Of a DNA stretch of 64,000 bases, positions 19,178-21,786 are shown in pieces. The notes under the pieces were generated by a model. The model did no database searches and was not told where the DNA came from. It was given only the letters and a program-made list of their open reading frames with translations. The translations under genes and the position numbers were made by a program. How positions within the stretch are numbered: the stretch's first letter is position 1; each line of letters opens with the position of its first letter. The stretch comes from a virus: positions 1 to 64,000 of the IMG/VR virus record IMGVR_UViG_3300044714_000124, one strand, 5' to 3'.

Positions 19178-19753
19178 ATGTCGATGAAAGCAATCATGTG
19201 GGCTTTCGGCTTGCGTGGTATGAGTCCCGGTGCAAAACTGGCGGCGATCGGAGTGGCCGAATGTGCATCCGGGGGCGTCGTTGATCATCGGAAAGTGGAA
19301 TGGCTGGCTAGGTTCGTTGGCGTGGACGTTGATCGTCTGTTTGTATATCTGGATGAATTAACCGAAAATTGCGGGGTGGAATTACGGAAGCTGCCTGATG
19401 GCGGAATTGAAATATTAGCGCCGGCATTAATTCCCGATACGCTCGAAAGAAAGGCAACCGCTTCGGATGAATCACCTTCTTTTATTTACATAATTGCCGG
19501 CGTTGAAATAACCAAAATAGGCATTTCTTCAAGTCCGAGAGAGCGATTGTACAGCTTGCAACTTTCGTTCGAAAGTCCCCTGAAATTGATAGCTGCATAC
19601 GCGGGGCCTGTCTGGTTGATCAGGCTGATCGAACGTGAATGCCATGCGATATTGCAGCCGAAGAAAGCTTTCGGTGAATGGTACAGGGTATCCCCCGACG
19701 AGGCGATTGAGATCGTCAGGGGTCGATTTGATGTGCACGGGAGACCGATATGA
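19178..19753 (+). CDS. Winged-helix plus GIY-YIG/T5orf172-like protein
   Basis: 191 residues. The N-terminal 80 residues look like a winged-helix (VDHRKVEWLARFVGVDVDRL). The C-terminal half (FIYIIAGVEITKIGISSSPR, then IERECHAILQPKKAFGEWYR) matches the T5orf172/Mug113 branch of the GIY-YIG nuclease fold, with the R, E and Y residues of that fold. A GGGAGG site precedes the ATG. A replication- or defence-linked nuclease is possible. Confidence 0.7.
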   Translation: MSMKAIMWAFGLRGMSPGAKLAAIGVAECASGGVVDHRKVEWLARFVGVDVDRLFVYLDELTENCGVELRKLPDGGIEILAPALIPDTLERKATASDESPSFIYIIAGVEITKIGISSSPRERLYSLQLSFESPLKLIAAYAGPVWLIRLIERECHAILQPKKAFGEWYRVSPDEAIEIVRGRFDVHGRPI

Positions 19754-21054
19754 GCGAAAAGCATAGCAGTCCGAAAGCGCGGCGTTTCGGGTCGGATGAA
19801 GCACATTCCTGGGCTCGAAATTTGCGTTTAGGCAACAGCCACGCGAAGCATATCCTTAAAGCTCTGACGCTGTACGTGGATGGGGATGGATCATGTTTCG
19901 TGAGCGTGCCGCAATTAGCGCTCGATTGTGAGATTGCGCCCGAGACGGTGCGCCGGCGACTGGTGTGGTTGGAATCGATTGGCGCAATCGTGCGGCTGCC
20001 ACAATGGATTCACGAAAATGGCAGGCGTAGCGGTAGTCCGCCAGGTAAGCGGACCAGTGATGAGATTCGGTTGCTGATCATGGATGACGTCGAGGAAATC
20101 GAACGCCGGGCATGCGGCGAGGATGGTACGGGGGCAGGTCAGGAAGACAGTGAACTTAATCAATGTGATGAGCCGGATAGTGGTATTGAGGTAGGCCACG
20201 TACCGCAGCCAGGGCTAAATGATGCGGTTAGCCACGTACCGCAGCCAGGGCTAAATAATGCCCAGGACTCTAGTAGGACTCTAGTAGGACTCTATCAGGA
20301 CTCTAATACGGTAGAGTCCACAGAATCGCGCGCGCGCGATTCTAACCTTAACCTTAATAAGAAAGAAAACCCCCCTACCCCCCTTAAAAGGGGGGGGGAA
20401 CATGAAATTCAATTTGAGGATTTCAGCGCGGCCTATCCTGGGCCTGTAATCGACGTGCCGAAGGCGGAGGCATTCTGGCGCGCCCTCACCGATCCCGAAC
20501 GCGCCGCCGCCCTCACGGGCGCCAAAGGCTACGCGGCCTACATCGACGCCGAACGCTCCGCCGGCCGCAACCGCGCCGTCAAGGACGCCCATCGCTGGCT
20601 GCGCGACAAATTGTGGATCGGATTTGCCAAGGAAGGCGCCAAGGCGGAAACCTCCGCCCAACAATTCACCTGTACGGAGAATTCGCCCGAATGGCTCAAA
20701 TGGCAGGTCTACTACCGCTGCTGCGGCGAGGATGGCATTCCCGAATATCGGATCAGCCGCTTCGAGGGGCGCAATGCCAAACTCGCCACGGTGCCTCGGC
20801 GCTGGCCTCCCGAATGCGGCGGCTTCTCAGGCGAACCATGGCAGGAACATGCTCGAGGGTCGCGCGAGTGCGCCGCGTGGCTCGCCCGGCTGCGCGAATT
20901 GCCCGGCGCGCGGATCGTCTTTCGCCGGGTGCGCGTCGGCGGTGAGATGGCGGTTGGTTTGCGTGTTCCGTCGCAATGGCCTCCCGCCAAGGGCTCGAGC
21001 GTGGCGCCGGAGACGCTGATGGATGCCGAGGATGCAGCGGCATTCGGCGCCTAG
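19750..21054 (+). CDS. Replication-initiator-like protein with origin inside
   Basis: 434 residues. The N-terminal HTH (SVPQLALDCEIAPETVRRRL) is like the DnaD/O-type replication helix-turn-helix domain. A long low-complexity linker (about residues 145-225) is encoded by iteron-like repeats and an AT-rich tract. The C-terminal half (DPERAAALTGAKGYAAYID) is of a type found in phage replication proteins. By analogy with lambda O the protein may bind its own gene. It overlaps the previous gene start by 4 bases. Confidence 0.7.
   Translation: MSEKHSSPKARRFGSDEAHSWARNLRLGNSHAKHILKALTLYVDGDGSCFVSVPQLALDCEIAPETVRRRLVWLESIGAIVRLPQWIHENGRRSGSPPGKRTSDEIRLLIMDDVEEIERRACGEDGTGAGQEDSELNQCDEPDSGIEVGHVPQPGLNDAVSHVPQPGLNNAQDSSRTLVGLYQDSNTVESTESRARDSNLNLNKKENPPTPLKRGGEHEIQFEDFSAAYPGPVIDVPKAEAFWRALTDPERAAALTGAKGYAAYIDAERSAGRNRAVKDAHRWLRDKLWIGFAKEGAKAETSAQQFTCTENSPEWLKWQVYYRCCGEDGIPEYRISRFEGRNAKLATVPRRWPPECGGFSGEPWQEHARGSRECAAWLARLRELPGARIVFRRVRVGGEMAVGLRVPSQWPPAKGSSVAPETLMDAEDAAAFGA
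20195..20400 (+). other. Candidate replication origin (iterons) inside the replication gene
   Basis: Two 36-bp direct repeats (20195-20230 and 20231-20266) start with GCCACGTACCGCAGCC. They are followed by four 11-bp iterons AGGACTCTAGT/TC/AT at 20264, 20275, 20286 and 20297, an inverted half-copy GTAGAGTCC at 20311, and a 22-bp perfect palindrome (20322-20343, arms AGAATCGCGCG). Then comes an AT-rich tract (about 20344-20368) and runs of C and G. The order iterons, palindrome, AT-rich region is that of lambda-type origins. Confidence 0.75.
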
Positions 21055-21129: not shown

Positions 21130-21786
21130 ATGGAATCCCTCGAATCACTGCCGACCACGAACAGCGCCGCGATCCCCCTCAAGCGCGCCAAGTGGGAGCT
21201 CTACGCCCAGGAGCGCAGTTTAGGCCGCGGCGCCTGGGAGGCCTGCAAGCGCGCCGGCCTCGAGCCGAAGAACGGCGCTGCGACGAAAGTGGAACAGCAT
21301 CCCGACGTCCAGGCCCGCATCGCCTATCTGGCCGCGCAGACCGCCGACATTCTCGCCGAAAAACGAGCCCGCATCGAAGCGCGCCAATGGCTCGTCCACG
21401 ACGCGAACCTTGAATTATTCTATGAGGACGTGGAAGAACCGATCATACGCGACGGCAAGCTCGTGCTCGGTCCCGACGGCCAGCCGCTGACGCGCAACGT
21501 GCATCGGCTGCGGCGTTTCAGCGACATCCCATCCGAATTGCTGATGGCCATTGAAACGCTGACGCATACCGACAAGGGGCGTCCGAACCTCAAACTCTAC
21601 TCGAAGGAAAAAGCCTCGATCGAATTGCGCCGTCTCAACGGCCTCGATGCGCCTTCGCGTGATGCGCCCGCCGACGGCCCGCCGCAGAGCGCCGAACAGA
21701 TGCTCTCCGAACTGCGCAAGCAGGCTGTCGATCTCGGCATCATCAAATATCTGGTCGGCGGCGACAGCGGCGATGGAGCGGCGTGA
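21130..21786 (+). CDS. Terminase small subunit
   Basis: 218 residues. WELYAQERSLGRGAWEACKR and AATKVEQHPDVQARIAYLAA match the N-terminal DNA-binding part of Terminase_2-type small subunits; the C-terminal third is helical and binds the large subunit in known cases. The large subunit follows after one small gene. Confidence 0.75.
   Translation: MESLESLPTTNSAAIPLKRAKWELYAQERSLGRGAWEACKRAGLEPKNGAATKVEQHPDVQARIAYLAAQTADILAEKRARIEARQWLVHDANLELFYEDVEEPIIRDGKLVLGPDGQPLTRNVHRLRRFSDIPSELLMAIETLTHTDKGRPNLKLYSKEKASIELRRLNGLDAPSRDAPADGPPQSAEQMLSELRKQAVDLGIIKYLVGGDSGDGAA

Follow-up and report, generated by a model that had tools for sequence, protein, structure and literature searches.

We analysed bases 1–64,000 (hereafter referred to as the window) of a 69,576-base virus record. 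An open reading frame on the plus strand (19750–21054) encodes a protein that matches PHROG 270 (replication initiation protein; E = 1.6e-14) and four more replication-initiation or O-like PHROG families. Its 5′ neighbours encode a DNA methyltransferase, a DUF5131 protein and a T5orf172/MUG113-domain protein, and its 3′ neighbours encode the small terminase (21130–21786), the large terminase and the portal. The features of the locus are as follows.

19750–21054, plus strand: replication initiator gene (434 residues)
19750–20124, plus strand: N-terminal winged-helix DNA-binding domain (residues 1–125; AlphaFold, Foldseek)
20131–20400, plus strand: predicted disordered linker (residues 128–217)
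20187–20222, plus strand: 36-bp direct repeat, copy 1
20223–20258, plus strand: 36-bp direct repeat, copy 2
20228–20254, no strand: 27-bp dyad, TTAGCC..GGCTAA
20264–20274, plus strand: 11-bp iteron 1
20275–20285, plus strand: 11-bp iteron 2
20286–20296, plus strand: 11-bp iteron 3
20297–20307, plus strand: 11-bp iteron 4
20298–20319, no strand: terminal dyad (iteron 4 and its inverted copy)
20312–20320, minus strand: inverted iteron copy
20322–20343, no strand: 22-bp perfect palindrome
20339–20369, plus strand: AACC repeats and A-rich tract, candidate DNA unwinding element
20370–20398, plus strand: C6-TA-C6-TTAAAA-G9 element (C-run, C-run, G-run)

Domain organization of the initiator

An AlphaFold model, computed with an alignment of 27 sequences as input, predicts a well-ordered N-terminal domain (pLDDT 87–97 over residues 11–120), a disordered linker (pLDDT below 50) and a C-terminal domain folded from residue 222. 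A Foldseek search against the PDB returned generic winged-helix matches only (best E = 7.6e-3). The product is a winged-helix replication initiator, modelled with the domain order folded, disordered, folded. The linker is rich in P, S, N and E, and its DNA coincides with the putative origin element. Among the large open reading frames scanned in the window, none encodes a P-type or DnaC-like helicase loader, and the next genes are those of the terminase subunits.

Repeat architecture of the linker

A sequence-only reading of this DNA had proposed a lambda-like origin within the gene, consisting of two 36-bp direct repeats, four 11-bp iterons and an inverted one, a 22-bp palindrome, an AT-rich tract and C/G runs, and each of these parts is present. 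The direct repeats are 89% identical and start 8 bp before 20195, the proposed start. The 27-bp dyad has the ends and length of a dyad found in the family, TTAGCCCTAGCAGCCAGCAAGGGCTAA, with shorter arms than in relatives. Four perfect copies of AGGACTCTA follow at 20264, 20275, 20286 and 20297, with a spacing of 11 bp, and an inverted copy carries one mismatch; the rest of the 64 kb holds a single one-mismatch match to this iteron. The terminal dyad has 8-bp arms and lies 24 bp before the AACC repeats. The palindrome is the sole perfect one of its length in the window. The nearest relative, L003, whose protein is 95% identical, retains the iterons, AACC repeats and C/G runs but has a broken palindrome, which is therefore probably peripheral to the element. 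Of all 26-bp stretches in the window, the AT-rich tract (20339–20364) ranks in the least stable 0.03%; together with the AACC repeats it reads ATTCTAACCTTAACCTTAATAAGAAAGAAAA.

The proposal that all of these parts lie in frame with the linker fails for the iterons: because 11 cannot be divided evenly by 3, the reading frame shifts from one copy to the next (QDSSRTLVGLYQDSN), and this argues for a function at the DNA level. We compared the linker with 1,000 synonymous-codon shuffles of the initiator gene. Its longest identical direct run is 26 nt (shuffles: mean 7.8, maximum 20) and its longest palindrome is 22 (shuffles: mean 8.5, maximum 22). If the linker were simply repetitive as protein and its DNA had no function, the disorder and the biased composition would be explained, but not the frame breaks, the reading of the same DNA repeats in different frames among relatives (see below) or the excess of most features over synonymous shuffles; we rejected a pure protein repeat on these grounds and consider such an explanation extremely improbable.

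The strand spanning 20297–20345 folds strongly (z = −5.4). By itself, the C/G element folds no better than its shuffles (z = +0.7), because it consists almost entirely of C and G runs, and it is thus not simply a strong RNA hairpin. The repeats might instead serve to regulate the initiator gene, as operators bound by its own product or as hairpins in a transcript that attenuates translation. Dyads are typical of repressor sites, and the strong fold would suit a hairpin; however, the repeats lie in mid-gene rather than at a promoter, a low-stability tract adjoins them, their plan is the same as that of the lambda origin, and the folding of the C/G element offers this explanation no help. We regard regulation in place of origin function as unlikely.

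Conservation among relatives

Relatives were found by alignment and DNA-pattern scans. The matches listed for viral contigs and genomes comprise 87 loci (43 non-redundant), mostly from Bradyrhizobium-type phages; 16 more distant loci were added, and a search for PHROG 270 across the phylum supplied another 70. The window protein alone as a query found nothing in genome contigs and no plasmid match, and the AACC/C-run pattern applied to genome contigs without a G-run filter gave many chance matches in unrelated loci.

The linkers of the 43 relatives usually show the same order: a dyad, 11-bp tandem half-sites, a second dyad that the final half-site forms with an inverted copy, CTCTGAACCTGAACCTGAA, a C-run, a second C-run and a G-run. 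An AACC pair followed by two C-runs occurs in 40 of the 43 relatives (synonymous-codon shuffles, which keep the protein fixed: mean 1.5, maximum 5), a frequency inflated by the collection of part of the close-family set through this very pattern; protein-based scans for relatives show the same arrangement. C-C-G runs occur in 41 of 43 (2.8 after shuffling). Dyads of at least 7 bp are present in 33 of 40 linkers (1.58 per linker, against 0.28 when shuffled), often about 10 and about 75 bp before AACC, and repeated 9-mers number 4.4 per linker against 0.17. The 11-bp period appears as an autocorrelation of 0.40 at lag 11 and 0.33 at lag 22, compared with about 0.25 at most other lags. The unstable tract is within the 5% least stable of its gene in 36 of 37 relatives. 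General codon-pair bias dominates five-mer enrichment, in which AACCT and GAACC nonetheless ranked high.

The arms of the dyads vary between phages and tend to match within each phage. Arms of the terminal dyad pair in 228 of 333 cells, against 181.7 ± 6.5 with permuted arms (maximum 204 in 2,000 permutations), although kinship among the phages inflates this and the other permutation tests on relatives; 68.5% are paired in register, compared with 17–35% when the arms are slid. The AACC repeat is read as NLNLN in the window, NLNL in L093 and EPEPE in most relatives, and in distant initiators a similar 12-bp repeat encodes EPSIEPSI, NRNRNRK or TVIGTVR. The differing frames, the covarying arms and the matched run lengths described below indicate that the linker repeats are conserved as DNA, not as peptide.

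Among the loci from the phylum-wide search, the linkers of L172, L173, L196, L216 and L178 carry GAACC repeats with a spacing of about 12–13 bp and no C/G runs, read as EPVREPV or NLVREPL; there are many such initiators.

The C-run/C-run/G-run element across phages

All three run lengths are equal in 31 of 36 relatives, ranging from 4,4,4 to 7,7,7, whereas permuted run lengths gave a mean of 5.4 equal sets and at most 14 in 20,000 trials. The window, with runs of 6, 6 and 9, is one of the five exceptions. About ten run-length changes map onto an N-domain tree, a count that is indicative only, since the tree lacks branch support. The equality is compatible with pairing of the G-run with either C-run, with a triplex or with three copies of one binding site.

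Scanning viral contigs for CCCCCCN{2,4}CCCCCCN{2,6}GGGGGG, with no protein information used, yielded at least 120 stretches. Among the matches listed, 86 non-redundant open reading frames of at least 160 residues contain the pattern, of which 30 match one replication-initiation family, 29 PHROG 270, 20 a primosomal family and 19 an O-like family; a reading frame can belong to more than one of these groups, so the figures are not additive. Their Pfam N-terminal domains, among the same matches, are unrelated (HTH_36 in 14, DUF1376 in 8 and Phage_rep_O in 1). As a composition control we used the mirror pattern GGGGGG..GGGGGG..CCCCCC. BLAST likeness to the collected initiators (sets A–C) was found, among the matches listed, for 1 of 46 mirror-pattern reading frames and 32 of 97 with the C/C/G pattern, and no replication family matched more than 2 of the 39 mirror-pattern reading frames listed. 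The recurrence of the element in replication genes of many unrelated phages suggests that it may mark a shared part of the start site. We found no description of such an element in the open-access literature.

The small terminase gene just downstream raises the alternative of a packaging (pac/cos) site. The element, however, tracks the initiator gene and not the terminase: in the related phage OP596613, terL lies about 2.4 kb past the initiator gene with several genes between, and the C/G element occurs in the initiators of many unrelated phages and in ydaU of the Escherichia coli Rac prophage. We rejected a packaging site for these reasons and deem one very improbable.

In L352 and in Cronobacter phage phiES15, lambda-O-type genes carry inverted-repeat iterons and an A-rich tract, followed by the C/C/G element. 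These genes (L352:7697–8551; phiES15, L476, 640–960) have different iterons, a similar A-rich tract and C-terminal part and the same C/C/G element, an apparent case of module exchange upstream of the A-rich tract. The linker of ydaU in E. coli K-12 (L477:20–877 = NC_000913.3 1421119–1421976) contains C7-TAAAT-C7-G5 on the coding strand together with TGTTCAAACA-type repeats, and the C-terminal part that follows resembles, as judged by eye, those of the L352 and phiES15 genes.

For the C/G part of the locus, a serious rival is that the element is a recombination boundary for swaps of initiator modules and has no role in initiation, in which case the iterons and the tract could still be an origin. 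A lambda-O-type N-terminal part (L352, phiES15) and a DUF1376 N-terminal part (Rac YdaU) indeed precede the same element and a similar C-terminal part. Such a boundary does not predict the joint change of the three run lengths or the fixed order after the unstable tract, and we think it rather unlikely; a boundary role could coexist with origin function. It is a credible possibility, which we advance tentatively, that C(n)-x-C(n)-y-G(n) with equal runs represents a general, so far undescribed part of phage origins that lie within genes, and that it acts through strand structure. Common to initiators with unrelated DNA-binding domains and located just 3′ of the unwinding tract, it would form alternative hairpins or a C.G:C triplex, for which the strand directions fit, and thereby position the helicase or a primer.

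In other initiators, for instance those of L258, L270, L285, L296, L313, L328 and L347, the C/G element is preceded not by AACC repeats but by short purine-rich ones such as GAGAAGAGAAG or GGGAAGGGAA, which may act as alternative motifs for unwinding or loading.

A putative intragenic origin

The position of the element, in a disordered linker between the DNA-binding and C-terminal domains of an initiator, is like that of the lambda origin in gene O, as had been proposed, and the order and composition of its parts also match the lambda plan. Tests in which the protein is kept fixed, or in which arms and run lengths are compared, show the plan to be conserved across some 40 relatives, which supports the reading as an origin. 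The sequence itself shows the linker location, part order, tract instability and DNA-level conservation; that the protein binds, opens the DNA and recruits the helicase is inferred from the analogy with lambda and from PMC5043065 and PMC7466680. On this basis, the element is probably the replication origin of the phage, embedded, as in lambda O, in the gene for the initiator.

GC skew had been suggested as a check. The best single breakpoint of the window does lie at 20200 (0.089 to 0.028), but its sign is opposite to that expected for simple bidirectional replication; the breakpoint also coincides with a gene-module boundary. OP596613 shows no break at its corresponding site. Skew is not decisive.

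In origins of the lambda type, the initiator binds the iterons as a dimer and opens the tract, and transcriptional activation takes part. By analogy, the winged-helix domain, probably in dimeric form, would bind both the inverted-repeat sites and the 11-bp half-sites, and the bound array would strain and open the adjoining AACC/A-rich tract, whose strands would receive the host replicative helicase through recruitment by the C-terminal domain. The C/C/G element, just 3′ of the opened tract, could fold when single-stranded, with the G-run pairing with either C-run, and the folded element might mark or hold a loading, priming or boundary point, a role that we consider possible but doubtful.

The origins of most phages are unmapped. 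If this reading is correct, it assigns the origin in this phage family to a single gene and implies that protein and DNA codes overlap in initiator genes; a short DNA signature would then find candidate origins and initiator genes despite unrelated replication proteins, and the mechanism could be tested in E. coli K-12 with Rac ydaU. The C/C/G element, if its proposed role is true, would be a sequence signature for locating origins in phage genomes.

Comparison with known systems

The lambda origin lies inside gene O, between the DNA-binding and C-terminal parts, and comprises inverted-repeat iterons and an adjoining unstable A+T-rich tract (PMC5043065, PMC7466680). The window has the same in-gene location between domains, as judged from sequence and model, and shares with lambda a winged-helix domain, iterons that include inverted repeats (the dyads at 20228–20254 and 20298–20319, with direct half-sites), an adjoining low-stability A-rich tract, a further inverted repeat and a C-terminal domain. 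It differs in its additional 11-bp tandem half-sites and AACC repeats, in having C/C/G runs at the place taken in lambda by another inverted repeat (although the O-type phages L352 and phiES15 do carry such runs) and in the next gene, which encodes a terminase rather than P. The window initiator has no Phage_rep_O match in a profile search and no homology to lambda O by hhalign profile comparison (probability 0.1 of 100). 'Lambda-like' is thus used here for a predicted likeness in working, not for homology to lambda ori or O; 23 of 27 aligned relatives match O-like PHROG families, so a remote kinship to lambda O is possible.

Iteron plasmid origins (P1, RK2 and R6K) contain helically phased direct-repeat arrays beside an A+T-rich region (PMC5043065). 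Phased direct repeats adjoining such a region are likewise found in the window. The repeat units of iteron plasmids are about 22 bp, whereas those of the window are 11 bp; in further contrast, the window has dyads, its putative origin is within a coding sequence, and no DnaA box (TTATCCACA, within one mismatch) occurs near 20 kb.

The Rac prophage has a known origin, oriJ. Its ydaU, a DUF1376 gene, resembles the window initiator gene in having linker repeats followed by a C-run, a C-run and a G-run, and differs from it in its unrelated N-terminal domain, its different repeats and a G-run that is shorter than the C-runs.
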